From positions 1 to 58,146 of IMG/VR virus record IMGVR_UViG_3300022920_000008: a DNA stretch of 58,146 bases. One strand, given 5' to 3'. The position numbers were made by a program, and so were the translations under genes. The stretch comes from a virus. Below, piece after piece: positions 3,921 to 58,125 of the stretch. The notes under the pieces were generated by a model. It did not search any database. It saw only the letters and a program-made list of their open reading frames with translations, and was not told the origin of the DNA. The first letter of the stretch is position 1, and each line of letters begins with the position of its first letter.

Positions 3921-5188
3921 ATCTGATAAAACTCCCCAAATGCTGACGGAAAGTCTGTTCCGTTCAGTCTGTCAATGTGTCTCACATACTCATGTAGTGT
4001 GTTGTTCTTGTGACTTTGATCCTCACTGTTCATGAAGTCCAATAGCTGTGCAAACTCCTGTGCTGTAGGATTGTCAGGATACTGTGCCATAAAGTTGTTC
4101 AGCTTGTCAGTAATAATTTTCTTTGTAGTTAATGGCAACACCTTTGCACTCATGTATTGTGGATAGTGTAGTATACCTGGATGGAACAAACCATCGTGAT
4201 GACTTGCAAACTTCTCATAGCCCTGTGCCATAATCCATTCACAAAACTCCACTACGTAGAATATATTAAGTGCATGTACTGTGCCCAGTATCTTTCCCAC
4301 AATGTTGTCTGGTGCATTTTCCAATTTGTCAATTGTTTGCTCAACAGCACTCCAGTCCGTGGGATACCTTAGCCAATGGTTTCTGTCTCCAGTGTTGTCT
4401 ATACTTAACATAACTTCCACACGTTTGAACTTGCTCCACATCTCTACAATGTCATCAGGCATGATTGTTCCGTTTGTGTGGTAGCGTAGTTCTATCTGAT
4501 GTGCATAGCCACTGTCAGCACAACGTTTGAGAAAGCGTTTGTGGTTCTTTAAGTATAGTGGTTCGCCTCCAGCAAATATAAAGTGTCGCATGTTGGGCAA
4601 TAGTGGCATTACTTCCTCATTCCAGAAGTCATCATCCTTGGCCCAGTCAAACTCTCCACTTGCATGGTCGTCTACTTTCCACTGCCACTCACCAGCAATC
4701 TCAGCGTTGTCTACTTGGCTTAGTACTTTGGCATCATTTACCCACTTGCTGCTGTCTGTTGGCCTACACATAACGCATTTAACATTACATGTGTTACCCA
4801 AACGCAAGTCCAGTGTAATTACATCTTGTGACAAGTGACCATCATCAGCAGTGTTGTCTATAAGGTCCTGGATGTATTCTTCTCCCAGTTGTTGACCCCA
4901 GATATTGTTTTCGTTAATACGATGGCTTCTAATACCACTTCGTTCTTCACGAGTACAATGTTTACATGCAGGCAGTTGTTTGCCAGCTAACATATCCACT
5001 CGTGCTGACTTAAAGTAATTGCTGTTCCATATAGCATCAATAGTTGCCACATTAAAGTTTAATCGCTTGTCGTGCTTGGGAGGCTGTGCAAGACAACACA
5101 ACAATGCTGTACCGTCAGTATAGCTTGCCATGTGGATCCACGGCAGGATGCAAAACCCTTTGCCATGTTTTTCAGTTAGTTTATCCAT
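3911..5188 (-). CDS. radical SAM protein with N-terminal twitch/SPASM-like domain
   Basis: About 425 residues from the preferred ATG at 5188, which overlaps the upstream stop (ATGGATAA); the longer frame begins with GTG at 5224 inside the previous gene. The N-terminal domain has auxiliary-cluster cysteines C13, C31-C32 and C75-x2-C78 (CKHC). The core cluster motif follows at C134-x3-C138-x2-C141 (NTCNVKCVMC), and AGGEP is at 206-210. This order, twitch domain first and catalytic core second, is that of N-terminal-twitch radical SAM proteins seen in phages and bacteria. It is paralogous to the next gene upstream. The substrate is unknown. Confidence 0.82.
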   Translation of the reverse strand: MDKLTEKHGKGFCILPWIHMASYTDGTALLCCLAQPPKHDKRLNFNVATIDAIWNSNYFKSARVDMLAGKQLPACKHCTREERSGIRSHRINENNIWGQQLGEEYIQDLIDNTADDGHLSQDVITLDLRLGNTCNVKCVMCRPTDSSKWVNDAKVLSQVDNAEIAGEWQWKVDDHASGEFDWAKDDDFWNEEVMPLLPNMRHFIFAGGEPLYLKNHKRFLKRCADSGYAHQIELRYHTNGTIMPDDIVEMWSKFKRVEVMLSIDNTGDRNHWLRYPTDWSAVEQTIDKLENAPDNIVGKILGTVHALNIFYVVEFCEWIMAQGYEKFASHHDGLFHPGILHYPQYMSAKVLPLTTKKIITDKLNNFMAQYPDNPTAQEFAQLLDFMNSEDQSHKNNTLHEYVRHIDRLNGTDFPSAFGEFYQIWD

Positions 5189-22400: not shown

Positions 22401-25400
22401 CTAATGGTTCATAAAATAAGAATTCTTGCCTATGGTTACTATATCCATCTACAATATATCCACTGTCTGTTTTTTTAATTTTGATATCACTTACCAACAA
22501 TAATAGTTCAGGTAACCCGCCTGCCATTGTTATTTGATAATCTCTAACACCCAAAGTATATCTTCCGTTTGTTCCACTTTCAGATTTAATCTTAATTAAA
22601 TTCTTATCTGTAAATCCATTAAGTGGCTGTAGTAAGCGGGTGCTTAATGAATTAAACGTTGATCCAATAACTTCGCTATTTCTATTTCTTTGGTTAGAAT
22701 TATATAATACTTGGTCAATACCAAGGTTATACTTAAAGTTTTCTCTAAGTGTTACACTAAATCCTATTGATGGCCAAACTTTAAATCCTTCAGCACTTAC
22801 TGGAGGTGTATATGAATCAGGATAAACAAGTGTTACATTTGGTGTGCTTGTATAGCCACTGCCTGCTCGTATAACAGACAAGCTTAAAATATTACCATTG
22901 CTGTCTAAATTAATGTCAGCTAACGCCGTTACTTTTTCATCTGTTCCAATAATACTAACACGAGTACCTTCTGGAATTTGTCCAGTTTGGTGTGTTACTT
23001 TAATATTTTGTACTTGCTTGCCATATGTACTGCCGTGATATGTAAGTCTCTTGTTTGAGAATTGAGTTTTATCTAAGTTATTAATCATACTTAAATCAAC
23101 AGTTTGTGTATCATGGAAGTAACCAGGCTGGAATACTGCTGGCGCAGTTCTTGCTGGGTTAAGTTTTATTACTGCATCAATCGTTGCTGCTTGACCTAGT
23201 GGTGATTGTCTCCACTCGTACTCAGTTGGTCCCCAGTCACCAAATACAAATGGTTTATATTTTTCTAATGGCGTACCTAATACTGTGCTTATTTCTTCTA
23301 GAGTTCCATCTGCTTTAACTGGACATTTAGAAGCCCAATCCCAACTACTACGCATAAACATTAATCTTTGTTTAACAGGCGTACCTGGCTCACTAATAAT
23401 ACCGTACTCTAATGCATTTAGTAATGCTGCACGTTTTATACTATCAGTCCAACTGTAATGTGTATTCCACCAGGTTGGCTTAATAGCAAATCCTAACATA
23501 TTCCAAGGAGTAAGGTGCGGGATACATGTACCAAATAACATATGGTAAATACCTTTCCAATGCCCTGGTGCTTCTTGTTCTTCAAACTTTCCTGGTAAAA
23601 CTATGCCAGTGTAATTCCAAGTTTTATCATCGGTTGGATCGTAATAATTCTCTGATTGTAAATCTGTATTTCCAGTTTTTGTTTGCCAATCCATAAAGAA
23701 TCTTTCAACATATTCGTCCATAGTAGTATGTGTATACCATAATGAATGATTCATTGTTGGCATAAAATGCGTTGCGTCAGTTAAGTGATCTACTTTTTTA
23801 TTGATGCCGTTCCAAACTTTCTTTTCAATATCATACAGTACAGCAAGTACTGGATTATAGTTTGGACCAAAAATATCATCTGGGTCATTTGTAGATGCAT
23901 CACTAAAATCAATAGTATAACCATCGTGACAATATAGTACATTATCAATAATTTGTGGACGTACTAAATTTGCAAGACCTAATTTTGTAATACTTGCAGG
24001 AATATAACTATCTTCTAGGCTTCCATGATTATATACTTCCACTCGAACATTTGTATCACCACTTGTGAATGGAACAAAAGAAGCATTAACTGTCAGCATA
24101 CCATTTGATATTGTATACTCATCATCACGCTTTAGCAAACGCTGTATACCATTATTATTTCCAATTGCATTGTCTATAAGATAAACATTAATATGATCCA
24201 CGCTAAATGTATCTTCATCATAATTAAACTTAGTTATAAAACTTTGTCCAACTGTATCATATATAAAGTCTTGTTTAACTGTAGTATCTTTAAATAACAT
24301 ACTTGATTTTTTATGCAGTTGGCTACCAATTTGTCCACTAATTAAAACGTCCAACACATCATTAACTAGCGCACGGGTGCTAGTATAACTGTTTGTCTTG
24401 TATAGTTTTTTTGCATGCGATACTACTCTTTTGCGTAAACTCCACCATTCAGTTGCTTGGTTTTTTAGTGCTTCTGTTAAATCAATATTATAGTCTACAG
24501 TAGTGTAGTCTTGTATAATGCTTGCCCCGTCACTAATATAAATTTCGCCACCAATGTTATTAATTTTAGGAATGATATCGTAATTATTTTTACCAGTTGG
24601 AGATCCGTGGAACCCAGGTTGATTTGCAATTAAACTTTTCCAGTGTGCTGATGTTTCACTAATAGTAAACTCAATAATTCTTTCATTACTTGGATTGTGA
24701 TTTAAAATTCTTGGCTGTGTAGTTACACTATTGTTATCCACATACTGAACATCAATAATAAACTCATCGCCTTCTCCTAATTGATCTGCTTTAATTACAA
24801 TTTGATCATCTTGTCTTTCAACAATATCTACATTGGTGCTGTCAATTAAAACTTTATCAGCCAGGTCTAATTGTTGTCCATTTGAATAAACTTTTAAGTG
24901 TGTGCTATCAATAATATCTTTACTAGCACTGATAATTTTATTTTTTCTGGTGCCATCTGTATAGAACATTACATATCCAGTATCATCTGGCAATGTAACT
25001 TCCCAAACATTGGGGCGTGAAGGGTGAGGAGCAAATGTAGCTTGACTACCTGGATCGATAAAACTCAAACTTTGATCTGGACTACAATCTTTAAATTCAT
25101 GAGTAACGTTTTGTTCTAACATTAGGGTTGCAGTAACTTGTGTGTTATAAGTTTTATTGTTAATTACTTTTGTTACGGCTAGTTCATCTAAAGCTTTAAA
25201 GTAGTCATAATAAACATCAGGCTTCCAAGATGATTTTGGAAGAGGGACAACGATATCTTCTGTTCCATTTCCAACAACTTGTACTTTACTTGATGACTGT
25301 AATGGGAAGTCACTAGCTACATAGTTTGCAGCTATACGTTCACCTCGACCATAGTTTGCATAATAGTTTCCTAGTATTTTAGTTTCAGTATTATTTTGCT

Positions 25401-26933: not shown

Positions 26934-29900
26934 TTATCCATTCGATTTAATATTTGCATTTGTTATCTGTTGTACGATTTCGATGTCAGCTACACTAACG
27001 TCTGGAATTAGTAGCTCATCGTTTAATGGCGTAATCTGGAACAACTTACCAAATACACTGTTTGCACTCTCTGGCACAACAACAAAACTACTAATTTCTC
27101 CAGATAGTTCTTGGTGAATATATGCTGCTAGTTCAGTAAAGTAAAATACTTCTCCAAATTCCCAATTTGAGATATTAAAGAACTCATAAACTTTATCTAC
27201 AATAACACTTTTAATTTCGTTGTCTGTTAGTCTGGAGCCTTGAGCTCTAATAACATTAAATCCTGCTCTTAATTCGTCAGGAGCTCTGTTACCAAACAGT
27301 ACTTTGTATTTAACTGGACGATAAATTAAACTATCGCTCAATGATTTTTTACTTGCCAATCCACTAAATTGACTTCCAAGTTCATTTAGTGTTGGCGCAA
27401 GTGGCATGTCTGCGACAATACTGTCGTTTTTAATTAGCCAATTTCTAAATTCTGTATCATAACTTCTAGTCAATACAAACACATCAATAAGGTTTGTAAA
27501 ACTAGGATCAATTAATTCGTTTGTATCTGGAACATGTGTCCATTCAAATCTTAAATTGCTAATTGAATCTTGATCGCCTGCCAAATTAACAAATGAATCT
27601 GGGGCATCTGGTCTAGAATCAGAATTAGCATCTACTAATGATACTGTAACATTGTTACTATCGTATATTCCATTACTTTGATAATTGTAACCAGCAATAT
27701 AAAATTTACCAAGCTCTACACCATCAGTAGTAAACACAACTTGGTCTCTTGCTTTTTTCTTAGTATAGTAATCTAGTTTATATTCGTTACTGCTATTTGA
27801 AAAGTGTACTTGCTCACTATTTAAATTATATCTTATAATACGTGTAGTAACATCATAACTAACTGATGCACCTGGCTTTCCATATATTAACCAACTGTCA
27901 GTTGTTTTACCAAACATTACTGGGAAGGCAGTATCAGCAGTTTGTTCAGGAATAAGTTGACTAGCAATAGAAGTTTTAAAAGCTTCCTGTTCATAGTCAT
28001 AGTAGATAATAAAATTATCTTTGGAATCCAAGTGTGCAATGATATCTTGTCTTTCAGATACGGTAAAGCTACGTGGCAATGCAGCATATCCCATTGTTAA
28101 TTCTGTATTACTTTCTACAACACGGTCAAGTGTAATTGCTCCATTGCCAGTAGCAGTTAAGCCTGTTGAGTTACCTGTTGAACTATCAACACCAAATCCG
28201 TTTGCAAATACATTTGCTACACGAGTCCATGTATATGTTCCGTCAGATTTTGAAAGCTTTAGCATTGCGCCTGCTTTAACAAATCGCATAAAGTCATCTT
28301 CAGCTGCTGTACCAGTATTCCCAACAATTTGATTAGAACTATTAACAAAATATCCAGTTGTTGAATCAACAACCTGCCACCTGTAAACATCTGAATCACC
28401 ATTACGTTCCTGTTGGAATCTACTAGCGTAGCCATCATAGTATAAGTTAATCAACTCTGGATTTTCCAATTGAGTTTTTATAAAGTTATCAAAAATACTT
28501 TGTGAACTAATATTGTTTGTGTTATTCTCAATAGTTAATTTTGTTTTTGTTAATGCTGCATCTGTATTGTAAAGAGTAACATTTGTATATGTGCCTGTTG
28601 GATCCATCAAGTCGATAAATCTACTGTGTCCACTGTGTGTACGATTTACACTTTTAATTTTAGCAATCTGGTCACTTTGTGTTAGCAGGTAGTTATTGTA
28701 ATCACTAGCAGTAATCATACGATCCTGCGCACTATATACTAGCGGAGCATTTTGTCTAATGTCGTCAAGCGATTCACTTTTACTTGCATTTGTAATTGTT
28801 TGTTGTAATGCAACACCAACTGTTGCTGTATAAATGTTTCCATCAATACCTGTATATTTGATATTAATTTGTTTTGTACCAATATCATCTGGACGCAATA
28901 CATATGTTTCATTAGCGCCAGTTCTATACCAAATACGAATAATACCACGTGGTAAATTACCAAAGTGTTCGTCTGGGAATAGTACACTAATCTGTCCATC
29001 TGTTCTTGTTTTAACAGCAAACACATTTCTTTTAGATACATCAATGTCATTGTAAATTTCATTAAAGCCGTGTACGTTTTCAACACGATCCCAAGAGCTT
29101 GTTATCTCTCCTGTTTCGTTAATTGTTTGCACCCATACATCGTCATTGTTTACATGGTTAGCATTGATGTCAAGTGCTAGATTACTAATCGGATCAGTAA
29201 CACTAAAGTCCTTGAAGTTCATGGCACCTTGTTTGAATCCCATAAAGAATCCAGTGTTAGCACTACCTAACCCACGGTTATCATTTCTGTAATTGATACT
29301 AAAGCTTCCGCTTGGATCTGGATACATCTCAATTGATGATGATAGTGCTGTGCTATAGTCTAGACCAATAAGGTTAAACGTTGTTTTCTTGCCTTGTACA
29401 CTTCCTGTAAATTCAAACACAATTTGGTTTTCATTGTTGTTTAAGTTGTAGTACTGATTTTCCACACCAGCAATCATAGCACTCTTGCGAGGGTTGCCAA
29501 ATTGGTTGGTTGTACTTAGTACTGCATTCATAATACTAATAAAGTCATCTAGATTGCTTGCATTATTTGAAGTCTCAAAGCGGATCTGTTTTCCTGCTAG
29601 GCTACCGCCCAAACTGCCTATAACAACTTCGTTTGTTTTAATACTAACAATTTTTAATTGTCCACTAGCTGGTACTGTGCGGCGAGGCTTATACCCTAGG
29701 AATTCAGCAAGTTTAAATACACTCTCTTGTTTTTGAGCAGTTGCAAGGAAATTGTTGCGGCTGTTTAAATCATTTCTGAAAGCAAAGTTATGACCAAATT
29801 GTGCTACTATATCTAATAATGCAACAAAGTCACTACTTTCAATCCAATCGTTAAAGTTTTCAGGATATTGTGATTGTATATACGTTACCATCGCTTCTCT

Positions 29901-30008
29901 AATGGTTGTAAAATCAAATGCCTGGAAGTTTGAGTTTAGATATGAATCGTAAACTGCCATATAGTCTTCTGCTGCAAAAAGTCTCGCCTGTCTAATTTGC
30001 TGTGCCAT
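26934..30008 (-). CDS. gp6: baseplate wedge protein gp6
   Basis: A 1024-residue homologue of T4 gp6, the wedge protein that forms the inner baseplate ring. The N-terminus contains YIQSQYPENFNDWIESSDFVALLDIVAQFGHNFAFRNDLNSRNNFL, of which YPENFNDWIESSDF and RNDLNSRNNFL are strongly typical; RRTVPASGQLKI follows. The protein is longer than T4 gp6 (about 660), mostly in the middle. The C-terminal GEVFYFTELAAYIHQ segment is also conserved-looking. It follows gp25 by one base and precedes the giant protein by five bases, the T4 order of 25-6-7. Confidence 0.92.
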   Translation of the reverse strand: MAQQIRQARLFAAEDYMAVYDSYLNSNFQAFDFTTIREAMVTYIQSQYPENFNDWIESSDFVALLDIVAQFGHNFAFRNDLNSRNNFLATAQKQESVFKLAEFLGYKPRRTVPASGQLKIVSIKTNEVVIGSLGGSLAGKQIRFETSNNASNLDDFISIMNAVLSTTNQFGNPRKSAMIAGVENQYYNLNNNENQIVFEFTGSVQGKKTTFNLIGLDYSTALSSSIEMYPDPSGSFSINYRNDNRGLGSANTGFFMGFKQGAMNFKDFSVTDPISNLALDINANHVNNDDVWVQTINETGEITSSWDRVENVHGFNEIYNDIDVSKRNVFAVKTRTDGQISVLFPDEHFGNLPRGIIRIWYRTGANETYVLRPDDIGTKQINIKYTGIDGNIYTATVGVALQQTITNASKSESLDDIRQNAPLVYSAQDRMITASDYNNYLLTQSDQIAKIKSVNRTHSGHSRFIDLMDPTGTYTNVTLYNTDAALTKTKLTIENNTNNISSQSIFDNFIKTQLENPELINLYYDGYASRFQQERNGDSDVYRWQVVDSTTGYFVNSSNQIVGNTGTAAEDDFMRFVKAGAMLKLSKSDGTYTWTRVANVFANGFGVDSSTGNSTGLTATGNGAITLDRVVESNTELTMGYAALPRSFTVSERQDIIAHLDSKDNFIIYYDYEQEAFKTSIASQLIPEQTADTAFPVMFGKTTDSWLIYGKPGASVSYDVTTRIIRYNLNSEQVHFSNSSNEYKLDYYTKKKARDQVVFTTDGVELGKFYIAGYNYQSNGIYDSNNVTVSLVDANSDSRPDAPDSFVNLAGDQDSISNLRFEWTHVPDTNELIDPSFTNLIDVFVLTRSYDTEFRNWLIKNDSIVADMPLAPTLNELGSQFSGLASKKSLSDSLIYRPVKYKVLFGNRAPDELRAGFNVIRAQGSRLTDNEIKSVIVDKVYEFFNISNWEFGEVFYFTELAAYIHQELSGEISSFVVVPESANSVFGKLFQITPLNDELLIPDVSVADIEIVQQITNANIKSNG

Positions 30009-30990: not shown

Positions 30991-31731
30991 TTATTGATTC
31001 CGTAAATTATAGAGGTCGACGATTTGTCTCATTCTTGATTGAGTTAGACCTGGTAAGAATTTACGCTGGTCAACGTAGTAAATATATTCACATTGCTGTT
31101 TTGCAATAGGGTCTTTTTGACGTGGATACTCTCCACGTATTAGGTTAATACCTTTAGACTGTAGCATACTTCTTGGTGTATGTCTACCATAATTACCTAA
31201 CATCATTATTTTTGCTTCGCTTTGGGTGCGTAAACGATCTTTTCCATTATTGATTAATGCAGTAGCTACATAATCCCAGTTGCGTTCTAATATATATGGT
31301 TTTAAGTCAAATTTAACAATTTCTGATCCAACTTTATCCCAAGCGCCTGTAAAAAAGTACAAACTTACCATAGCATCATACTGTGTTTGTGTTAGCGTGT
31401 CAAGTGGAAAAAACTTTTTAAATGCACGTTCTTTGTTTTTAAAATTGTCAATCCAATATCCATAAGCTTCTGATTCTTCTAGTGCAACTGGATTGTTTAA
31501 TTTTTCTGTTAAGCCATATCCAATTTGCAACTGTTTTGTTTTTTTGTTTTTGTTTTTATACGGTATGTAAGGAGTTTGACGTAATGCAAAATTAATCAAC
31601 AAGTCACTAGTTTCTAAATCACTTAGCGGAATCAAAGTATTACTAATGTTAGCTTCAACTTTAGGAAAAATTGTAAAGTCAATAAGCATATCGCTTGTTA
31701 CTTTTGAGGGTCTAACTACGTACTGTGGCAT
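30991..31731 (-). CDS. lysozyme-fold protein (GH24-like), likely catalytically inactive
   Basis: A 246-residue protein. LQIGYGLT matches the IGIGHLLT strand of T4-type lysozymes, and TQTQYDAMVSLYFFTGAWDKVGS matches the conserved N-F/Y-G helix region of that family. Aligning YKN...IGYG to YKD...IGIG puts arginine at the catalytic Glu11 position, asparagine at Asp20 and a non-threonine at Thr26. So the usual triad appears lost. In T4 the lysozyme domain is part of gp5; here it is a separate gene whose start touches the gp5 gene. It may act as a structural hub part or anti-receptor of peptidoglycan. Confidence 0.65.
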   Translation of the reverse strand: MPQYVVRPSKVTSDMLIDFTIFPKVEANISNTLIPLSDLETSDLLINFALRQTPYIPYKNKNKKTKQLQIGYGLTEKLNNPVALEESEAYGYWIDNFKNKERAFKKFFPLDTLTQTQYDAMVSLYFFTGAWDKVGSEIVKFDLKPYILERNWDYVATALINNGKDRLRTQSEAKIMMLGNYGRHTPRSMLQSKGINLIRGEYPRQKDPIAKQQCEYIYYVDQRKFLPGLTQSRMRQIVDLYNLRNQ

Positions 31732-42089: not shown

Positions 42090-42121
42090 GGCTGACTAGT
42101 GGCAATCAGCCCGCGAAAAAA
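42090..42121 (-). promoter_or_regulatory. -1 programmed frameshift site: slippery heptamer plus hairpin
   Basis: In the gp26-like reading frame the codons are AAT TTT TTC, giving the X XXY YYZ heptamer T TTT TTC (42121-42115). After one base comes an 8-bp perfect stem, CGGGCTGA paired with TCAGCCCG, with a 10-base loop; it includes the zero-frame TGA stop. Confidence 0.65.
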
Positions 42122-42936
42122 TTTGCAACATCCAAATCAATTTTTGTCTTCCATTCATGCGAACAGTGCTGGCAGTTTGCTGTCAAATTAGTATCAATGC
42201 AATCATCGCTAACTGCATCAACAGTACTTCTCAACATATCATAATCATCTTTTGTAATGCTTTGTAACCATTCTTTGATTATAACCTGGTCTGTGATTTC
42301 TTCGCCTTCTGGTGGCCTAACTGCGTATATGCAATTTGAAATTAAATCAACTGTTAAATTGGCAAGCTCAATAAAAGTTTTACCAAATTGTTCACTACGT
42401 TGCTCTTCAGTTAAATCACTAGCAGTTAATGATTGAATCATTTTCTGTTGTTTAACTTGTTGAATTTGCAATAGCGTACGGTCTTTTAAACTGTAAGGCT
42501 TAACATGTATTGTGAAATTATTTTCAAGTACCAATTTATCACTAACTTGATTCTGTGATACTGTTGATAGCAAACGATTTGAATCAACAGCAAGCATATT
42601 AAGTTCTTGACAAGCTGGGCATTTGATATCAACACTAAGTTCACTACCATGTGTTGCTTGTCTGATACCAAGTAATACCACCAACAAATCATTAACTGGC
42701 ATTTGCTCTGGGTCAATTACATCAGGACAACAACTACGCAACACAGCAAAGGTAGCTTCGCCGTTGAATAACGCATCTGGTGTTTTATAAAGCAATTCGT
42801 CTCTGGCAGTCATGGCATATACTGCCAATTCACCATCAACACTTAGTTTTGGTTTGTCTGTATAATATTTGCCGCCGCTGGGTAAGCTGACGTATAATGC
42901 TGGCTTTCTATAAGCCGCTACTAATGGGTTTGTCAT
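42106..42936 (-). CDS. baseplate hub assembly protein gp26-like (tail assembly chaperone candidate)
   Basis: A 276-residue protein of the T4 gp26-like baseplate family. The N-terminus PALYVSLPSGGKYYTDKPKL (20 residues) and the block LLYKTPDALFNGEATFAVLRSCC are typical. It has a zinc-ribbon pair CPAC (C106, C109) and CQHC near residues 258-261. In T4, gp26 helps build the hub around the tape measure. Here it is divergent from the tape-measure-like genes, with about 77 bases between the starts. Its 3' end holds the frameshift signal described separately. Confidence 0.75.
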   Translation of the reverse strand: MTNPLVAAYRKPALYVSLPSGGKYYTDKPKLSVDGELAVYAMTARDELLYKTPDALFNGEATFAVLRSCCPDVIDPEQMPVNDLLVVLLGIRQATHGSELSVDIKCPACQELNMLAVDSNRLLSTVSQNQVSDKLVLENNFTIHVKPYSLKDRTLLQIQQVKQQKMIQSLTASDLTEEQRSEQFGKTFIELANLTVDLISNCIYAVRPPEGEEITDQVIIKEWLQSITKDDYDMLRSTVDAVSDDCIDTNLTANCQHCSHEWKTKIDLDVANFFAG

Positions 42937-43013: not shown

Positions 43014-45899
43014 GTGAATTTTGAGAAAGAATTTCAAAAAATAAATGCAAAATACCCTTGGCTAAAAGAAGCTACTTTATATAATGCAGTAGAAGTAATC
43101 GGTAATGATATAAAAGCTGATACCAAACTACAAGAACAATTTAATAAAAACAAGCCAGATCCACAAAAATTTGATAATGTAACCAAGTCTTTAATGAAAG
43201 ATCTAGTATCAAAAGGTAATCAGCAGGCCAAACGACTAAAATCTGCAACACGAGCAGCCTTAATGATAGGAAGAAGTTCTTCTCCAATATCAAGTACTGC
43301 TACACTAGTCCAAAGTGCTGGGTTAGCAGCTAACAGATTAGGTAACGGTGTTGCAAATTCATCAAGAACTGGTTTGTTAGGTGACGTTGGCGGTGGATCA
43401 ATAGCAGCATTTGGTATAGGTGCCGCAGCATATTCCGGCGCCATGATTATGTATGGCAAGCTAATGGAAGAACAAGAAAAAGCATCACGTGCAATGATCA
43501 ATCAAGGTTTGCTTGTTACTGACGTTGACCTGTTTACCCGTATGAAAAATACGTTTGCAGAAGCAGGTATGTCTTTAAATGAGGGAATGGAATCATTAGG
43601 TGATTTAATACCAACATTTGCTAACTTGGGAGATAGCTCAGCAAAAGTAATTACTGATTTTATTCAAGGTCTTGACACTGCATTAGATTCTGATGTAATT
43701 CATAAATTTGGACAACGAAGAAACGTAGTAGTTAGACAAGTATCTGAAACATTAACTTCACTTCGTAACATTAATAGTATAGATGATTTAAACCAAATGT
43801 CAATGAACAAAGTTTTAGATCGTTACGAATCAAATGCTAGAATTATATTTGGTGTCAGTCAACTAATGGGCGTTACTGCTGATTCAGAAAGATCTAGCCG
43901 AATGGAAGCCAGCAACAATATTAATTTTATTGTAGCAATGAGAAATAGTCAAGCAGCCATTATTGATAGATTGGGAGAAATTGGGTATGACAATTTACAG
44001 CAAGCACAATCTAGTTTTGTATCTGGACTAAATTATTTAGGTAACGAGTTTAGCACACTAGCAAGTAATGCACTCAATAGAGCAGTTTATGATTATGATA
44101 CAGACACAAACTTCCGTAACAATATTGATACTGAATTAAATGAAGTACTAAATCTATTAGGTCCATCAGCTAGACAAAGTTTCATAGATTTAGGACAGCA
44201 GCTTCTAGATGGTGAGCTATTTGGAATTGAGCTAGAAATTGCAAAGCGTGACTTCTTTAATACTGTTCGTAACTCATCTGACAGTCCAATTGCAAATGCA
44301 CAATTTCAAATTCCAGATGGGGAAATAGATATAGCCAGAGAAGTGTATAATAGAAGCTTTTTAATTGGTGATGAATTTATGAATGCTACTGACTTAGAAT
44401 TGGTTGAGTTAGCTGCTGCCGGCGCTGCCCTTACTGATAATGCTGACGATGCATTAGTAGTTGTTGACACTTTGGCAATTGCATTACGTAAAGTGTATAA
44501 TTTAATGACTCCTGGCTTTGCTACAACTGGGCAAGCTATGAGTTATTTCAATGATAATTTACAAAGATTAGTAGGCGGTACTGATAGTCTTTTAACTGCA
44601 TTAGAAACAACGTTCAGTGTAGAAAGAGAAGGTCCTCCATCTGTAGGCAGTCGTGGAAGAAATCAAAGAAGGGGCGATCGTGCTGGTACAACATCTACAG
44701 GCGATTCGACATCACCAGGCTCTCCAACACCATCTGTAGGCAGTCGTGGAAGAAATCAAAGAAGGGGCGATCGTGCTGGTACAACATCTACAGGCGATTC
44801 GACATCACCAAGGTCGCCAGGCAACAGCAACTCTACAATCGTTGGCGGCGTAACATTATATCAAGGTGGAGAGTACGGCGTTAATACTACTGAGGGTAGG
44901 TCGGTGTTATTAGATATGTCAGGCGGTGGTGCAAGTAATATGGTTCGAGATGGTGCTCAGGAAAATTTAGATAGATTGCTCAGTGGACCTTATGCAAGGA
45001 TGCAGGAATATTATGGCGGTCCATTAAGCATTAATGATGCCATTGCAAAACACGGAACCTCCCGTGAAGACACCACACCAAACAGTCAACACTTTTTTGG
45101 AAATGCTCTTGACATAGGCACACATAACATGAGCAATGAAGACAAAGCTAGGATAGTACACGCAGCATTGAGAGCAGGGTTTACAGGATTTGGATTTGGC
45201 GCTGGTATTTTGCACGTTGACGTAGGAAGAGCAAGAAGTTGGAGTTATAATAATTCTCATTATGGTGGGTTGCCAGTTAGCGATTGGCAATCGTTTGTTG
45301 CTGGCAATGCAGTTGCAGCTATACAAGAAGTTGAATTGCAAGGATTGCAAAGTGAGTTTGCATCAGAATCTCAAGATCAACCAACAGATGAAACTTCAGA
45401 TGTAATTCCAGATAATCCAGACTCAGTTGAACCAGGTTCTCCTACACAAGTTATAATACCGGAAGGTAATGGCCCGCCATTATCTGAATCACAAGACTCA
45501 GAAGAGCTTAGTACACTTGATACGTCAGATATTAATTTACGACAAATAGCAAGCGCAAGAGATGATCTTTATGCCGAATATTGGAATCCAGATACCTCTA
45601 CATCAAGAATACTAGAAATAGAACGCAGTTTAGGACGTATTGAATCTGAATACGGAGATCATATTAGTGGCATGGGCTTTGACATAACACCAGGAACTGG
45701 ACAGCAAAGTTATCACCTGTTAGACGAACGTTTACAGGAACGTTATGAAGAATCATTAAACAATAATGATACTGAAACTATTAGTATAATAAATTCACGC
45801 ATACAGGATGAAATTGATAGAGCTAATATTACTCGTACTGCATGGCAATCAATATTTGATGCTGGTGCTAATAGTCGAAGAATAAGCGAGACAGTATAA
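43014..45899 (+). CDS. tape-measure-like tail protein with M15 peptidase domain
   Basis: A 961-residue protein from GTG 43014 with AAAAGGGG upstream. The N-terminal part (YPWLKEATLYNAV), the hydrophobic glycine/alanine stretch near 140 and EQEKASRAMINQGLL are shared with the next two genes. A basic repeated linker at about residues 540-600 leads into a peptidase M15 (D-Ala-D-Ala carboxypeptidase-like) domain: zinc motif S691-Q-H693-FFGNA-L-D700 and H734-x-D736. It probably lies inside the tail tube and opens host peptidoglycan during injection. The C-terminal 200 residues are acidic and helical. The stop overlaps the next ATG region (TAATG). Confidence 0.75.
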   Translation: MNFEKEFQKINAKYPWLKEATLYNAVEVIGNDIKADTKLQEQFNKNKPDPQKFDNVTKSLMKDLVSKGNQQAKRLKSATRAALMIGRSSSPISSTATLVQSAGLAANRLGNGVANSSRTGLLGDVGGGSIAAFGIGAAAYSGAMIMYGKLMEEQEKASRAMINQGLLVTDVDLFTRMKNTFAEAGMSLNEGMESLGDLIPTFANLGDSSAKVITDFIQGLDTALDSDVIHKFGQRRNVVVRQVSETLTSLRNINSIDDLNQMSMNKVLDRYESNARIIFGVSQLMGVTADSERSSRMEASNNINFIVAMRNSQAAIIDRLGEIGYDNLQQAQSSFVSGLNYLGNEFSTLASNALNRAVYDYDTDTNFRNNIDTELNEVLNLLGPSARQSFIDLGQQLLDGELFGIELEIAKRDFFNTVRNSSDSPIANAQFQIPDGEIDIAREVYNRSFLIGDEFMNATDLELVELAAAGAALTDNADDALVVVDTLAIALRKVYNLMTPGFATTGQAMSYFNDNLQRLVGGTDSLLTALETTFSVEREGPPSVGSRGRNQRRGDRAGTTSTGDSTSPGSPTPSVGSRGRNQRRGDRAGTTSTGDSTSPRSPGNSNSTIVGGVTLYQGGEYGVNTTEGRSVLLDMSGGGASNMVRDGAQENLDRLLSGPYARMQEYYGGPLSINDAIAKHGTSREDTTPNSQHFFGNALDIGTHNMSNEDKARIVHAALRAGFTGFGFGAGILHVDVGRARSWSYNNSHYGGLPVSDWQSFVAGNAVAAIQEVELQGLQSEFASESQDQPTDETSDVIPDNPDSVEPGSPTQVIIPEGNGPPLSESQDSEELSTLDTSDINLRQIASARDDLYAEYWNPDTSTSRILEIERSLGRIESEYGDHISGMGFDITPGTGQQSYHLLDERLQERYEESLNNNDTETISIINSRIQDEIDRANITRTAWQSIFDAGANSRRISETV
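44637..44810 (+). repeat. tandem repeat: two identical 81-base copies, 93-base period
   Basis: Bases 44637-44717 and 44730-44810 are identical and start with CCATCTGTAGGC. They encode the basic linker PSVGSRGRNQRRGDRAG and TTSTGDSTSP twice, in frame. Perfect identity suggests recent duplication. Confidence 0.9.
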
Positions 45900-48793
45900 T
45901 GATGGACATTGAAAATTGGATTAACCAGATAGTTCAAACTTACCCGTGGGCTAGTGAAGACACTATGTTGGTAGCATTTGGAGAACAAACTAGATCAAAT
46001 TTAACAGCTAGACAGGCAGTTGCTAAACTTAGGAATGATCCTGCCAGTTGGCAAAGCATTGTTGATGAGATTAAAAAGAATACTGACAGATCTTCTACAT
46101 TTAATAGGTACACAAAAGAGTTATCTCAATCAAGCAGTGCAATAATTAAATCGATGGCCAGGGATGATAGTATAAATGCTATTAACGAATTAGCATATAA
46201 TTTTTCTAAAGGTTTAGATGGAATTGCCAATGCCGCAGACGAGTTAACTGATAGTGCCAGATGGCTATCAATGGCGTCAACAGGAAGATTTGGAAACCTA
46301 GTAAGAGCAGTTGAAACTGGAGTTGATTTTTTAAATGTTGGAGCCAATACTGTTATTGGTACAGTTGCTATTGGTGGTATTGCATTAAAGTTTATACAAG
46401 ATCAAGAAAAAGCATTACGTACAATGATTGACTTTGGTATATTATCTAATGACTTATCAGTGTTTAATGAAATTAGAGATAATGCTGCTTCATTAGGAAT
46501 GACTCAACAAGACTTTATTAAAGAGTTTAGTGATTTTGGACCAATATTTACAAACATGACTACCAATGCTGCTGATGGATATCAGCAATTTACAGACATG
46601 ACAGCCGCAATAAAGCAAACTGACACATTTAGTACATATGGTATAATGCTACGTGATTATGCCAAACAGATTGCAGAAAATACCAAGCTTGCATATAATT
46701 TAAGTCAGATGACCGAGTTTAACGAAAACACAAAAGCACAGTTAGCTGAAACATTTAAAACTAATAGTACATTTGCATTATCAATGGCAAACGCAACAGG
46801 AGAAAAAAGAGATGATCTTTTATCTGCCCGTAAAGATGCACTTAGTGGAATTGAGTTAATAGCCGCAATGGATCAAAACTTTGCATATATTACTGAGCAG
46901 TTTGGAGAAAACGGTGCAAGAAATATAACAGAAAATATTGGCTTTTTGAGAATGTTAATGGCACCATTGCCAGATGATTTTGCTGACGAAAGTATAGACA
47001 TTATTACTCGTTCACTTTACGATGTGCAATTTGATGGTGGCAACATACTTAATAATATAAGTGACGATATGTTAAAAATGTTAACAGCATTAGGCCCTGA
47101 TGTCAAGAACCAATATCTTGAAATGATGCAAACGATAGTGCAAGGTGGATATGATGCATCTGATCCTGGTCAAATAACAAATGACTATTTGGACTTGATG
47201 CAATCTATCAAAGCTACTGACCCAGTAACAGTTACATATTTAGAGGTAAAACCTGAACAAGTAAATGCTAGAATGATACAAGACATTGTAAGAATATTAC
47301 CAGAATCAGCTTTTAGTAGAAACTTAACACTCGTTAATTTAAATGAAGCTACAACTGATACTGCTGCAACTTTAGCAGGACAAGCTGTGGCTGCAATTAG
47401 TAGCATTGGTGTTTTTACTGCTACAATTAAAAATGGTATACTTCCTGAATATGATACTACTGCAAATGCTATTAATAATTTTGGCACTGGTCTTGCATTT
47501 TTAGAGAATGCCATGGACGTAATAGACATGTCAGGAAGAAGAGATGAAGTAATTGATTTAGATAGTGGCGCAGAAAACCGTGCGGCTATGATGGAACAAC
47601 GTGAAAGCATGTTACGTGATTTAGAGTCAGTTAGGACTGTTGAAGAATTCAATGCTGTTTTAGATTCACATAATTTACCAGGATTATCAGGCGGCTCAAT
47701 TAATATGCCAGCTAGTGATATCAGCCATTTATTTGGTAGGGGTGAGACAACTGATAGCTCTGGACGTCCATCAGCAAGTTCAGAAGTAGTGGCGGCAAGG
47801 TTGATTGCAGCATTAGATGACTTTGGAATTACTAACCCGCAAGCCCAAGCTAACGTACTTGGTATGGTAAGTGGAGAAAGTGGATTTAGATTATTAGAAG
47901 AAACTAGTTACAGAAATACAGATGTATCAAGAATTAGAGAAGTTATGGCATCAAGAGCACAGTTTTATACTGACGCAGAAATAGAACAACTTAAAACAGA
48001 TGATCGTGCATTCTTTGATGCAATGTATGGTACTGAACAGAGTAATAGACGACAACAGGCAAGAGATGCTGGATTATCCAGGGCAGATACTGGCGGCAGT
48101 ATTAGTCCTCAATTTATCAGAGGAGGCGATATGGGAGGTTATGATTATCGCGGACGTGGGTACATTCAATTAACTGGTAGAGAAAATTATAGAAGAGTTG
48201 GTGAAATGGTAGGAGTTGATCTTGTTGAAAACCCAGACTTGGTAGTTGATCCATATTGGGCACCTAGAGTTGCAGCCGCATTCTATGCAATTAAAAGTCA
48301 AAGTGAACGATCAAAAATGACGGATGCTCGAGAAGTATATAGAATGACATGGGGGGCATATCCTGATACTGCTACAAAAATAGCTGATGCGCAAAATAGA
48401 GCTGGTATTGGTGCAGCGTTTTTACTAAGAATTCAATCAGGCGAAATGGCAAATATCGATACTTCGTTATCTCAAGCAGAACAAGATTATGTCAATCAAA
48501 CAAGAGGCGACGGAGAACTACAACAACAACATGCAGAGTTAACTGATCAATTTATGCTAGAGGGTCTTGGTACAGGCCGCCAAGCTGGAGATATTCCAGT
48601 ACTTGAAGAACTCACAAATCCAACTAGCATAAATACAGATACTAATGACTCTGAATCAACTATTCCTGATGTGTCATCTCTTTGGACTACTCCAGTGCTT
48701 AACGATGAAGAAACTCAACAGGCAATACGAGAGATACAAGAATACTTAGCAACAGCGCAGAACAGACAGGTAACAACAGGAAATGTCAGATAA
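45899..48793 (+). CDS. tape-measure-like tail protein with GH19 lysozyme/chitinase-like domain
   Basis: A 964-residue paralogue of the preceding protein. It starts with NWINQIVQTYPWASEDTML and has a hydrophobic segment followed by DQEKALRTMIDFGIL. From about residue 630 it carries a GH19-type glycosidase domain: the putative catalytic glutamate E660 in VSGESGF, and DYRGRGYIQLTGRENYRR near 748-765, with the GYIQLTGR signature. GH19 domains in phages cut the glycan chains of peptidoglycan. The C-terminal tail is Asp/Thr/Ser-rich. Its stop overlaps the following gene by 11 bases. Confidence 0.78.
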   Translation: MMDIENWINQIVQTYPWASEDTMLVAFGEQTRSNLTARQAVAKLRNDPASWQSIVDEIKKNTDRSSTFNRYTKELSQSSSAIIKSMARDDSINAINELAYNFSKGLDGIANAADELTDSARWLSMASTGRFGNLVRAVETGVDFLNVGANTVIGTVAIGGIALKFIQDQEKALRTMIDFGILSNDLSVFNEIRDNAASLGMTQQDFIKEFSDFGPIFTNMTTNAADGYQQFTDMTAAIKQTDTFSTYGIMLRDYAKQIAENTKLAYNLSQMTEFNENTKAQLAETFKTNSTFALSMANATGEKRDDLLSARKDALSGIELIAAMDQNFAYITEQFGENGARNITENIGFLRMLMAPLPDDFADESIDIITRSLYDVQFDGGNILNNISDDMLKMLTALGPDVKNQYLEMMQTIVQGGYDASDPGQITNDYLDLMQSIKATDPVTVTYLEVKPEQVNARMIQDIVRILPESAFSRNLTLVNLNEATTDTAATLAGQAVAAISSIGVFTATIKNGILPEYDTTANAINNFGTGLAFLENAMDVIDMSGRRDEVIDLDSGAENRAAMMEQRESMLRDLESVRTVEEFNAVLDSHNLPGLSGGSINMPASDISHLFGRGETTDSSGRPSASSEVVAARLIAALDDFGITNPQAQANVLGMVSGESGFRLLEETSYRNTDVSRIREVMASRAQFYTDAEIEQLKTDDRAFFDAMYGTEQSNRRQQARDAGLSRADTGGSISPQFIRGGDMGGYDYRGRGYIQLTGRENYRRVGEMVGVDLVENPDLVVDPYWAPRVAAAFYAIKSQSERSKMTDAREVYRMTWGAYPDTATKIADAQNRAGIGAAFLLRIQSGEMANIDTSLSQAEQDYVNQTRGDGELQQQHAELTDQFMLEGLGTGRQAGDIPVLEELTNPTSINTDTNDSESTIPDVSSLWTTPVLNDEETQQAIREIQEYLATAQNRQVTTGNVR

Positions 48794-51476
48794 AGTATAT
48801 AATTTAACGCTACCAGATGGCACTACAATACCAGTACCTGCTTGGGCTCGTGAAGCTACCTTATCTGTTTTAGTTGAGCAATTAAAAATTGGAAGTTCAC
48901 TAAACAAGTCTTTAATAAAAGAAGTAACTGATTTAAATTTAGATACTGATGAAATTGAAGACAGTATTCAAGATATGTTTAATAGTCTTGAAACTGTAAA
49001 ATTACAAGAGAGTGAAGACGAGAAAAAAGCCAGAGCTGGCTTTGCCAAAGGAATTGCAAAAGCTACTAATGATGTTGTTGACTCTTTAAGTGACACAAGT
49101 CAACCATTAACTACTATGACTAAAAATGCAGAGTTAGCTGCAGGATGGTTAGGCAAAGGCGGCGGGCAATGGCTGAGAAATTCTACAGCATTAGCAGAAA
49201 CATTTGAGGGCGCTGGAGACTTTATAGCAGGCGCCGCAGATGGATTAGGTGATGCATTTTTTGCATATGCTGGTTTTGTAGCAGGACAATTAGAGTCATT
49301 TGCAAAAGCACAAACAAATATGATTAATGCAGGTGCTATATTCTTTGACGCAAGTGTTTCATTTGATGATCTAAGAGAATCTGCCGCGGCGTCGGGCATT
49401 ACTTATAATCAGTTAAGTGAAATTGCAATGCAATATGGTACAGGATTGCAAGTTTTAGGTCGAGGTGTTTCGGGCGGTGTTACAGAATTTTTAAATACAT
49501 TCAAAGATCTACAAGAAACTTCAGAAGCATTTGGCGACTTTGGTATGTCAAACGAACAACTTGCCGCAGGGTTTGCTGAGTTTATCGAAGTGTCACGTTT
49601 AACTGGTTTAGTTAATAACAAGACTCAAGACGCATCTGGTGTCCTAGAACAAGGATACACAAACTTATTGCAAGAAACTACTGCATTAGCTGCATTAACA
49701 GGTAAAAGCAGAGACCAACTATTAGCTGAACAAAATGAAGCATTGAAGAATCCAACAACTGCCGCAGCATTAATTAGAATGGAAGAACGTGGGTTTGGTG
49801 ATGAAGCTGAAGTAATCACTAGTATTGTTAGACAGTTAGCAAACACTGCTGAATACTTACCAGCTGGTGTTTCAGACATGATACAATTAGCAATTGGTAC
49901 TGCATATGGCGAACTTGAAGCAGGTGAAAATATCAGTAATGTTGATTTACGAGCGGCACTACGTGCCGCTGATCCAAGTGGTAGTGTGTCTACAATACTA
50001 AACAGTTCTGGTATTGATATTATGGAAAAGATACAAACTGCGGTAGCAAATGGTTCAACACCAGATGATATAAGATCATTTATATATGAAGAAATCGCAG
50101 CTATAGATGAAGGCATTGATGCAGACATTCGAATGAATACAGGCACCTTGAGTGACTATGCAGCAATGGTACTGGAGTTTAGAACCAAAAGTATATTGGC
50201 AGACAAAGATTTTGCTACATTGTTACGTGGTACTGAGGAAGAGCGTAACGCAGTTTATGCTGATATGCAACGACAGTTGGCAACATCAGGAACGGCAACA
50301 CTTGCATTGAATGATTTAACTAAACTATTTTTACAAGCACAATCCAAACTAACTCCAGATTTAGATAAATCTGCAGCATATGCAAGATCAATTGCTGGTG
50401 GTATGGAACATATTGCTAACTTATTAAACGGCCAAACAGGCGCAGATAATGATAGTGGTATTGGCGGTGGTCTTAATCCACTTGTAAATGCTCAAATAAC
50501 AACTGAACAACGAGATCAACAATTAAATGACGGACTTGAAAATGGAACTATACCTGAAAACTATGAAGATCCTATAGGCGATGCTCCAGTTTTAGAATTC
50601 GACCAGGCAATCATGGACGAATTTTTAGGTATGATGACACAATCAGGTGGAACTCCTGATAGCTTTACTGATATCATTCACGGTGAAGTAATGCGAATGC
50701 CACATCCTGTAAACCGTGGGGTAACTGCGTTTATGAAAATGAGAGAATTTGGTGGTACAGTTACACCAGCAGCTAACAATCACGGGTATGTTGTTGGTGA
50801 AGCAGGACCAGAATATTTTGAACCAACCGGCGATGGAAAAATTATACCGTTTAGCGAAATGACATCAATAATTGAAACAAGTGCCCGTGCTATCGATGCG
50901 TTTACGTCAGCAGTTGGAAAAATCGACTTATCATCAATATCTGATTTTACACAAACTACATTACAATCATTAGCAGGAAAAATGGTTGAAAATATAATGA
51001 CTGAAGTTGACACTGTAGATACAGCATCTTTGGGTGCATTTGGTGGACAAGGTTCGATGGTGATCGATGGTATTGGCATTAACGAACTATTAGGTGATCT
51101 AAACATACCTAACAGTGCATTAGATTTACAAGCACAATTTGAATCTGGCGTTGGATTAGATGTATTTGGTGGAAGTGATACGCCTGTAACACCTGCAACT
51201 GTAACAAAAACTGAAAATAGCCAACCAATTAATGAGCTAAATACAAGCACGGTAGGTACAGTATCTAATACTTCAAATAATCAAATTGTACAAAATGTAC
51301 CTCCAGCCCCAAATCAAACAAACAATAATTCAAATTCTCCAGATTTTGAAGAATTTAAAACAAAAATGCAAGAATTGGCAAGCGTAAAAGAAACATATAG
51401 TAGTGTAATTATGGCTTTACGTGACGAAGTTAGAAAATATCAAAGAATTAATGATACTGGGAGAACTTTCGGTTGA
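48783..51476 (+). CDS. tape-measure-like tail protein
   Basis: An 897-residue protein, third in the tandem set. It has WAREATLSVLVEQL at the N-terminus, FAYAGFVAGQLESFAKAQTNMINAGA (hydrophobic segment and A-x-x-x-M-I-x-x-G block shared with the other two), and repeated helical stretches. Near the C-terminus NHGYVVGEAGPEYFEPTGDGKI (core VGEAGPEYFEP) is a signature common in tail tape-measure proteins. No hydrolase domain is seen. It is the best candidate for the gp29-like tape measure, although gp29 is shorter (about 590). Confidence 0.68.
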   Translation: MSDKVYNLTLPDGTTIPVPAWAREATLSVLVEQLKIGSSLNKSLIKEVTDLNLDTDEIEDSIQDMFNSLETVKLQESEDEKKARAGFAKGIAKATNDVVDSLSDTSQPLTTMTKNAELAAGWLGKGGGQWLRNSTALAETFEGAGDFIAGAADGLGDAFFAYAGFVAGQLESFAKAQTNMINAGAIFFDASVSFDDLRESAAASGITYNQLSEIAMQYGTGLQVLGRGVSGGVTEFLNTFKDLQETSEAFGDFGMSNEQLAAGFAEFIEVSRLTGLVNNKTQDASGVLEQGYTNLLQETTALAALTGKSRDQLLAEQNEALKNPTTAAALIRMEERGFGDEAEVITSIVRQLANTAEYLPAGVSDMIQLAIGTAYGELEAGENISNVDLRAALRAADPSGSVSTILNSSGIDIMEKIQTAVANGSTPDDIRSFIYEEIAAIDEGIDADIRMNTGTLSDYAAMVLEFRTKSILADKDFATLLRGTEEERNAVYADMQRQLATSGTATLALNDLTKLFLQAQSKLTPDLDKSAAYARSIAGGMEHIANLLNGQTGADNDSGIGGGLNPLVNAQITTEQRDQQLNDGLENGTIPENYEDPIGDAPVLEFDQAIMDEFLGMMTQSGGTPDSFTDIIHGEVMRMPHPVNRGVTAFMKMREFGGTVTPAANNHGYVVGEAGPEYFEPTGDGKIIPFSEMTSIIETSARAIDAFTSAVGKIDLSSISDFTQTTLQSLAGKMVENIMTEVDTVDTASLGAFGGQGSMVIDGIGINELLGDLNIPNSALDLQAQFESGVGLDVFGGSDTPVTPATVTKTENSQPINELNTSTVGTVSNTSNNQIVQNVPPAPNQTNNNSNSPDFEEFKTKMQELASVKETYSSVIMALRDEVRKYQRINDTGRTFG

Positions 51477-51515: not shown

Positions 51516-53186
51516 ATGAGCTGGAAAAAACATTTCACAAAGTACGAACCTTCTACAGGAAATGGTCGTACAAAAGCCAATAGATGGCAGTCCTGGTTAC
51601 CAGAAGTATATTCTGGTATGCCAAATCGTGTTGAGCGATATACTCAGTATGACCAAATGGATCAAGATAGTGAAATTAACGCAGCACTAGATACAATTGC
51701 TGAATTTAGTACGCAATCAGAATCACAAAGCAAACTACCATTTTCAATTAATTACAAAGATGAAATGACAGAAAGTGAAATTTCTGCTATCAATACAACA
51801 CTAAAACAGTGGTGTAATATTAATGATTTTGAACGCAGAATGTTTGGTGTGTTTAGATCTACTATTAAATATGGAGATCACTTTTTTATTCGTGATCCAG
51901 AAACATTTAAACTAATTTGGGTTAACCCAGCAGATATTAGCAAAGCAATTGTAAACGAAAGTACTGGTAAGGAAATTGATCAGTATATTGTAAAAAATAT
52001 CGCACTAAATTTAAATGACATGGTTACTACTGATACCCGTAAATTAAACAACATGGGTATCAATAACACTACTGGCGGAATAACAGGTGCAGCACAAAAT
52101 ACAAGTACAGGCACATATCAAGGTGGTATGAATTCAAATAACACAGAGTTTGCAGTTGATTCAGCACACGTTGTTCATATTAGTTTAACAGACGGAATGA
52201 ATGCAAGTTGGCCATTTGGTAACAGTATCCTTGACAGTGTATTCAAAGTATACAAACAAAAAGAATTATTAGAAGATAGTATTATTATCTATCGTGTACA
52301 AAGAGCTCCAGAACGCCGTGCATTTTATGTTGATGTAGGTAATATGCCAGCACATAAAGCACAGGCATTTGTTGAGCGTGTTAAAAACGAAGTACACCAA
52401 ACTCGCATACCTACAAAAAATGGCGGCGGCGCAAGCGTAATGGATGCAAGTTACAATCCTTTATCAATCATGGAAGATTACTTCTTTGCACAAACTGCTG
52501 AAGGACGTGGATCAAAAGTCGAAGTATTGCCAGGCGGCGACAACTTAGGTGAGATTGACGACTTAAAATACTTTAACAATAAGTTAATGCGTGGCTTACG
52601 TATTCCTTCAAGTTACTTGCCAACAGGACCTGACGATGGCACAGCAACTTATCAAGACGGTAGAGTAGGCACTGCCTTAATTCAAGAATTTAGATTTAGT
52701 AAGTATTGTGAGCGGTTACAGTTAATCTTACAACCAACATTAGATTATGAATTTAAACTATTCATGAAACACAAAGGTATCAATATTCCAGGAAACTTAT
52801 TTGATCTAGACTTTGTAGAACCACAAAGCTTTAGTCAGTATAGAGAAATTGAAATTGATAGTTCAAGAGCGCAGTTATTTGGCAACTTGGACGGTGTACA
52901 ATATCTAAGTAAACAATTTATCTTACAGAAATATTTAGGTTTAAGTCAAGACGAAATCAAAGAAAACGAAGCCCTGTGGAAGAAAGAAAATTCTTCAGAC
53001 AGTTCACCAGATTTAAATAACCAAGGAGACTTGGGATCATTGGGTGTTAGAGGCGGCGATATTGAAAGTTTCGAACCAACTGATTTAGACGACGATGGCG
53101 CAGATGGCGGAGTAGACGATTTAGATGTTGAAAACCCTGATAGCCCAATTAGCGGTGCAGAGGGGGGCAGCGACGATGAGATTTAA
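51516..53186 (+). CDS. gp20: portal vertex protein gp20
   Basis: A 556-residue T4-type portal, the dodecameric DNA gateway. Diagnostic segments are RVERYTQYDQMDQDSEINAALDTIAEF (key YDQMDQDSEINAALD), IYRVQRAPERRAFYVDVGNMP, EDYFFAQTAEGRGSKVEVLPGGDNLGEIDDLKYF (key FFAQTAEGRGSKVE and LPGG) and LRIPSSYLPTG. Length is close to T4 gp20. The C-terminus is acidic and overlaps the start of the next gene. Confidence 0.96.
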   Translation: MSWKKHFTKYEPSTGNGRTKANRWQSWLPEVYSGMPNRVERYTQYDQMDQDSEINAALDTIAEFSTQSESQSKLPFSINYKDEMTESEISAINTTLKQWCNINDFERRMFGVFRSTIKYGDHFFIRDPETFKLIWVNPADISKAIVNESTGKEIDQYIVKNIALNLNDMVTTDTRKLNNMGINNTTGGITGAAQNTSTGTYQGGMNSNNTEFAVDSAHVVHISLTDGMNASWPFGNSILDSVFKVYKQKELLEDSIIIYRVQRAPERRAFYVDVGNMPAHKAQAFVERVKNEVHQTRIPTKNGGGASVMDASYNPLSIMEDYFFAQTAEGRGSKVEVLPGGDNLGEIDDLKYFNNKLMRGLRIPSSYLPTGPDDGTATYQDGRVGTALIQEFRFSKYCERLQLILQPTLDYEFKLFMKHKGINIPGNLFDLDFVEPQSFSQYREIEIDSSRAQLFGNLDGVQYLSKQFILQKYLGLSQDEIKENEALWKKENSSDSSPDLNNQGDLGSLGVRGGDIESFEPTDLDDDGADGGVDDLDVENPDSPISGAEGGSDDEI

Positions 53187-57798: not shown

Positions 57799-57872
57799 GA
57801 GGGTGTAGTGAAATGGTATCACGCTGGTCTCCAAAACCAGAAGCAGGAGTTCGATTCTCCTCACCTTTGCCA
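57799..57872 (+). tRNA. tRNA-Trp (CCA)
   Basis: A complete cloverleaf: acceptor GAGGGTG/CACCTTT with two G-U pairs, D arm GTGA/TCAC, anticodon stem CTGGT/ACCAG with loop CTCCAAA (anticodon CCA), T arm AGGAG/CTCCT, and encoded CCA. Confidence 0.93.
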
Positions 57873-57882
57873 AATATAAAGC

Positions 57883-57958
57883 GGGCCGGTAGCTCAGTTG
57901 GTAGAGCAACTGACTTTTAATCAGTAGGTCTCGGGTTCGAACCCCGACCGGCTCACCA
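57883..57958 (+). tRNA. tRNA-Lys (TTT)
   Basis: Acceptor GGGCCGG/CCGGCTC, D arm GCTC/GAGC, anticodon stem ACTGA/TCAGT with loop CTTTTAA (anticodon TTT), a normal T arm and encoded ACCA. Confidence 0.96.
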
Positions 57959-57968
57959 CTATAATAAC

Positions 57969-58044
57969 ACTCCTCTAGCTCAATGGTTAGAGCAGAACGC
58001 TCATAACGTTTTGGTTACAGGTTCGAGTCTCTCCACCTATGCCA
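57969..58044 (+). tRNA. tRNA-Met-like (CAT), acceptor and T stems mispaired
   Basis: D arm GCTC/GAGC and the anticodon arm GAACG-CTCATAA-CGTTT (anticodon CAT) are good. The acceptor strands (ACTCCTC against CACCTAT) and the T stem (ACAGG against CTCTC) do not pair. The 3' 16 bases match 13 of 16 of the tRNA-Trp 3' end, so it may be a chimera or a decaying gene. Confidence 0.5.
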
Positions 58045-58048
58045 ATTA

Positions 58049-58125
58049 CTCGGATTAGCGCAGTCTGGCAGCGCATCTGCTTTGGGAGCAGAGGGTCGTA
58101 GGTTCGAATCCTACATCCGAGACCA
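58049..58125 (+). tRNA. tRNA-Pro (TGG)
   Basis: Perfect acceptor CTCGGAT/ATCCGAG, D arm GCGC/GCGC, anticodon stem TCTGC/GCAGA with loop TTTGGGA (anticodon TGG), T arm GTAGG/CCTAC and encoded ACCA. Confidence 0.96.

Follow-up and report, generated by a model that had tools for sequence, protein, structure and literature searches.

Three tandem tape-measure-like paralogues, two carrying different wall-hydrolase domains, between the hub and portal genes of a virus related to jumbo T4-like phages

The window analysed in this study, by which the whole 58,146-base IMG/VR virus record is meant, contains three consecutive plus-strand open reading frames arranged head to tail, here called A, B and C (Table 1). 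An earlier note made from the letters alone had listed three consecutive genes of these lengths, and the reading frames confirmed them. A and B overlap by one base and B and C by eleven. A gp26-like hub gene on the minus strand and a gp20 portal gene on the plus strand flank the slot that the three genes occupy, and in the relatives, too, the slot is bordered by this divergent hub gene. The portal protein of the window is 52-53% identical to those of PA5oct and Phosso, and the portal-nearest cultured phages are the jumbo T4-likes Phosso, PA5oct, Atu_ph07, XaC1, GAP32 and CBB (46-53% identity). Elsewhere in the window, three nearly adjacent minus-strand genes with radical-SAM family matches (2057-6506; phrog_1802, phrog_14086) lie beside a thymidylate synthase gene, a single minus-strand reading frame of 3489 codons (16459-26928) adjoins a large baseplate-wedge-like gene (26934-30008), and tRNA genes for Trp, Lys and Pro (57799-58125) follow the major head protein gene.

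Table 1. Features of the hub-portal slot, with positions in the window
Feature	Position	Strand	Basis or remark
gp26-like baseplate hub gene, left border	42106..42936	-	phrog_150 baseplate hub, E 3.2e-18
Gene A, putative tape-measure-family paralogue with M15-type peptidase	43014..45899	+	961 codons, GTG start
A: N-terminal family core, residues 1-566 (match from residue 16)	43014..44711	+	family profile match
A: hydrophobic Gly/Ala segment, residues 128-146	43395..43451	+	hydropathy
A: M15-type peptidase domain, residues 661-744	44994..45245	+	PHROG peptidase, E 1.2e-8; PF08291, 21.0 bits
Gene B, putative tape-measure-family paralogue with GH19 domain	45899..48793	+	964 codons
B: hydrophobic Gly/Ala segment, residues 145-163	46331..46387	+	hydropathy
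B: GH19 domain, residues about 635-870	47801..48508	+	PF00182, E 8.8e-8; phrog_181 endolysin, 4.7e-23
Gene C, paralogue without enzyme, portal-proximal	48783..51476	+	897 codons
C: hydrophobic Gly/Ala segment, residues 148-166	49224..49280	+	hydropathy
C: VGEAGPE tape-measure-type motif, residues 671-677	50793..50813	+	matches to annotated tape measures
gp20-like portal gene, right border	51516..53186	+	phrog_213 portal, E 2.3e-115

The three proteins are homologous across the whole N-terminal ~500-570 residues, since the scores of Smith-Waterman, phmmer and profile-profile comparisons were all far beyond chance. In Smith-Waterman alignments of the N-terminal 560 residues, A-B scored 341 (z = 36), A-C 141 (z = 12) and B-C 147 (z = 13), whereas the shuffle controls averaged near 50 and reached at most 77-85. 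The one-sequence phmmer comparison of A with B gave 8e-29, and a profile of 43 A/B-type sequences matched one of 38 C-type sequences with a probability of 99.9 and an E of 6.7e-37 over 502 columns. The paralogy claimed in the earlier note was thus borne out; a profile comparison of the N-terminal halves had been named there beforehand as the refuting test, and the refutation failed, as homology was found. The three short blocks on which that claim was based are all present, i.e., the opening motif (YPWLKEAT in A, YPWASEDT in B and PAWAREAT in C), the hydrophobic Gly/Ala segment, of modest hydropathy (1.15-1.53), and the (E)KA-x-x-x-MI-x-x-G block (QEKASRAMINQG in A, QEKALRTMIDFG in B and FAKAQTNMINAG in C), and the homology extends well beyond them.

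Two different hydrolase domains and one tape-measure signature had also been read from the letters, and all three held. In A, the M15 assignment was confirmed by the PHROG peptidase match and by the zinc-ligand letters H693, D700 and H734 (H-x6-D...H), which are conserved in four module relatives, and the Pfam score falls just below the 23.2-bit cutoff. The zinc-ligand stretches SQHFFGNALD and LHVDVG are conserved among A and the relatives L089, L161 and L098 (relatives are given by locus number). In B, the GH19 domain scored 32.7 bits against PF00182, above the cutoff of 25.5 bits, and its relatives include solved GH19 endolysins (endolysin PDB 4ok7, E 1.1e-13); the catalytic glutamates are found in GESGF and LLEE, and the signature YRGRG-x-IQLTG (GRGYIQLTG) is present. 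Searches of the PDB with the peptidase domain of A and with the modules of L090 and L092 gave nothing useful. No enzyme domain was recognised in C. The C-terminal motif VGE-x-GPE occurs in many annotated tape measures and, among the three paralogues, in C only; for the stretch around VGEAGPEYF, annotated tape measures were matched in phages of Pseudoalteromonas, Roseobacter and cyanobacteria, most of the matches being weak (best E 2e-3).

Relatives were reached through portal gene searches, and an iterated profile search placed a portal-adjacent homologue in nearly all of those with the slot covered. One copy occupies the slot in all cultured relatives inspected and in most environmental relatives from the portal search. 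A profile of environmental members, built without the cultured-phage proteins, gave exactly one match in each of the complete genomes of PA5oct, Phosso, Atu_ph07, GAP32 and XaC1 (E 1.9e-9 to 3.9e-21); these single matches sit in the gp26/gp20 slot, and a second profile found no further copies elsewhere in complete cultured genomes. Two copies were present in five of the portal-nearest loci with the slot covered (L003-L006 and L009), and three in the window, L089, L090, L092, L094 and L095. At the sensitivity used, the cultured collection yielded no phage with two or three copies, and tblastn of C, the A of L089 and the C of L005 found none in cultured phages. Single-sequence searches of viral contigs returned no relatives of B and C, and the C-type alignment had no match when bacterial and archaeal genomes were scanned with it.

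In the portal tree (76 tips), all genomes with two or three copies fell into one clade (support 0.887, 33 tips), inside which the three-copy genomes made up a subclade (6 tips, 0.98); these genomes were fetched with the C-type alignment, and the sample gives the nesting on an independent gene, not the frequency of each state. The A/B-type alignment is too divergent for the pattern scan. Because of this nested pattern of one, two and three copies, the history would fit two successive tandem duplications in one lineage. In the core tree, the six A sequences grouped together (99/98), as did the six B sequences (98/99) and the C-types (100/100), and the groupings inside A and B largely repeated the portal tree. 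Core identity among the more distant three-copy members averages 30-40%, with C being the most conserved copy (about 40%, versus 30-31% for A and B). Since the A, B and C groups are supported, with the groupings inside A and B largely following the portal tree, and since the cores have diverged to such an extent, the three-copy state is old in this clade and has been retained, with three distinct lineages inherited vertically.

In the three-copy clade, the hydrolase modules have been replaced and the chemistry kept, with a presumed glycan cutter in B and, in most members, a peptidase in A. The window and L089 combine an M15 peptidase in A with GH19 in B, while L094 and L095 have a VanY-type M15 peptidase (E about 1e-22) in A and an SLT transglycosylase (E about 6e-9) in B. 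In L092, A is M15-like by its zinc motif only and B has a lysozyme-like domain, the latter being read on L091, which was taken to hold the same gene by length and neighbours; in L090, A is without a recognised hydrolase and B has the same lysozyme-like domain as L092 (endolysin phrog_90 at 1.6e-17). A presumed glycan cutter (GH19, SLT or lysozyme-like) is therefore present in six of six B proteins, an M15-superfamily member in five of six A proteins (in L092 by motif only) and a recognised hydrolase in none of the six C proteins. The glycan role of the lysozyme-like domain is taken from PHROG endolysin matches and the motif GEGSYxxSN...AVGKYQIIPST, not from Pfam. The peptidase pattern in A could partly be the inheritance of one diverged module.

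Modules are more varied among the two-copy phages. The first copy has an M15 domain in L098 and L161, an M15-like one by motif in L113 and L118, GH19 in L162 and L168 and the lysozyme-like module in L009, L157 and L166, with nothing recognised in the others, and a VanY-type module is found on the C copy in L009, L137 and, weakly, L162. Between distant members the modules are 44-62% identical and the cores only 23-33%, as would be expected if modules moved between genes; a slower divergence of the enzymes could contribute. The lysozyme-like module (L090 8961-9506; phrog_30077/37890/90), which has no Pfam match, also occurs in L009, L091, L157 and L166, and in several genomes it sits in first or second copies.

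The conserved stepwise expansion of a tape-measure-like gene, with hydrolase chemistry divided among the copies, is well supported. The open-licence literature searched gave no earlier description of tape-measure paralogues in tandem, which is weak evidence.

The family probably works as a tape measure, as had been suggested in the earlier note; gene position, a virion-protein homologue, the tape-measure-type motif near the C-terminus of C and the way in which homologues have been annotated all support this assignment. PA5oct gp335 is a virion protein according to its record (ESI-MS/MS), and CBB_251 was detected in the virion, where 29 unique peptides covered 50.14% of it (PMC5259590), both being homologues in cultured one-copy phages and not A- or B-types. 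Erwinia phage records label the homologue 'putative tape measure protein', and a note on RaK2 ORF088 likens it to a tail tape measure. In PHROG the GAP32 homologue (phrog_14121) is filed only as a virion structural protein, under 'head and packaging'. Across six cultured phages, homologue length (720-845 aa) tended to increase with published tail length (115-136 nm), short of significance (r 0.79, p 0.06; Spearman p 0.28). No further long protein stood out as a tape-measure candidate. Atu_ph07 gp701 (L169 20510-21127) is annotated as the tail length tape measure protein; it has only 205 residues, looks lysozyme-like by eye and did not match A, B, C or the other window proteins compared, and AUZ94979.1 of the same phage (L084 7426-9963) is the better candidate.

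The comparison with T4 gp29 drawn in the earlier note stands only as an analogy: no homology was detected with eight gp29 sequences (hhalign probability of at most 2.4), and the family is not placed with gp29. What A, B and C have in common with gp29 is the contractile-tail T4-like context and the hub-gene neighbourhood, gene 26 of T4 adjoining the operon that holds gene 29 and a divergent gp26-like hub gene lying just upstream here. T4 gp29 has 590 residues and is not known to carry a hydrolase domain. Profile searches of solved structures mostly returned coiled-coil-type matches of no weight (8v3w_B, E 0.009). A conserved C-terminal helix for docking to the hub seemed likely by eye; the last 45 residues were, however, no more conserved than the linkers.

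The closest known systems are GAP32_244, CBB_251, RaK2 ORF088 and PA5oct gp335, which resemble A, B and C in the N-terminal core, the gp26-like/gp20 slot and the similar size; these jumbo T4-like homologues are single copies, whereas three are found here. No hydrolase domain was found in the homologues of GAP32, XaC1, PA5oct and Phosso, unlike A and B, and the C-terminal half of the Atu_ph07 homologue matches endolysin and tail-lysin families. Tape measures with a peptidoglycan hydrolase domain that is delivered on ejection include T5 pb2, whose muralytic domain is C-terminal, mycobacteriophage TM4 TMP and phiCbK gp95 (PMC10038345, PMC1796659, PMC3556154). In these, one gene carries one hydrolase type, whereas here a peptidase and a glycosidase are split over paralogues. 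The tape measures of diffocin (CD1366), T5, 80alpha, JBD30 and phiCD508 are trimers, resolved at full length in diffocin and at the C-terminus in T5, 80alpha and JBD30 (PMC10996793, PMC10038345, PMC11445458, PMC11948020), and that of A-1(L) is a six-fold bundle with three distal ends resolved (PMC10966104). As helical tape measures in the tube lumen, those of diffocin, 80alpha, JBD30 and phiCD508 may work like A, B and C; they are homotrimers of one gene, however, and A, B and C gave only the weak coiled-coil-type match mentioned above.

We somewhat favour the reading that A, B and C are tape-measure paralogues of jumbo-type T4-like myoviruses, generated by two tandem duplications, which form a mixed lumenal bundle with complementary wall cutters. 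Within the lumen of the tail tube, the helical cores would run alongside one another and set the tail length, in a mixed bundle whose simplest form would be 1:1:1, matching the trimers of other tape measures. On contraction the three proteins would be expelled into the periplasm, where A would cut peptide cross-links (M15) and B the glycan chain (GH19), C keeping an unarmed, motif-bearing role. With the duplications, two complementary enzymes could ride on one ruler, no copy needing both. Side-by-side placement and coupled production fit because the core lengths are similar and the genes abut or overlap, and a mixed bundle with both cutting activities in each tail fits because, in addition, the C-terminal tools are unlike. 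Stacking of the three proteins end to end in the tail is less likely because it implies a tail about three times as long. A stricter form is put forward tentatively: an obligate A:B:C hetero-oligomer, in its simplest form a heterotrimer in place of the ancestral homotrimer, with one peptidase and one glycosidase per tail and the two-copy phages as intermediates.

The mixed bundle has to be weighed against readings in which fewer of the proteins, or none, are rulers. That only C is the ruler, with A and B as enzyme carriers that sit in the lumen or at the hub and open the wall once ejected, seems rather unlikely to us, although it would explain why C is the best conserved copy, why it alone has the tape-measure-type motif and why it adjoins the portal gene, the place of the single copy in one-copy phages. 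One would expect a pure carrier to lose the core or reduce its length, but A and B retain its full length and the hydrophobic segment; the copies also stay adjacent, abutting or overlapping in the genomes seen, and the C copy itself bears a VanY-type module in some two-copy phages. The proximity to the portal gene, together with the PHROG category and the lack of homology to gp29, would suit an ejection protein of the head or neck, or a part of the baseplate hub, that is injected before the DNA. This is improbable, considering the T4-like position of the hub gene just upstream, the VGEAGPE-type motif common to annotated tape measures, the tape-measure names given to homologues and the failure to notice an alternative long candidate. 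The matches of the A and B hydrolase domains to endolysin families could further suggest non-virion lysis enzymes that keep a tape-measure-derived N-terminus by happenstance; but both proteins are large, their genes are placed among those for tail and head and abut or overlap C, and fusions of wall hydrolases to tape measures are well known (PMC1796659, PMC3556154), which makes such an origin very hard to credit.

Under the favoured mixed bundle, the clade would show clearly how gene duplication turned a homo-oligomeric part of a phage machine into a hetero-oligomer. A single ruler gene is believed to determine tail length. With that gene doubled, then tripled, and with the copies long kept and equipped with complementary wall-cutting chemistry, the clade would provide a natural experiment both on the stoichiometry of the ruler (three strands or six) and on the way in which phages get through the wall. 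A further protein of the window touches on the latter subject: directly after the gp5-like spike gene, the minus strand encodes a protein of 246 residues (30991-31731) that matches an endolysin family weakly (phrog_7, E 4.5e-5) and is possibly a third tail hydrolase.
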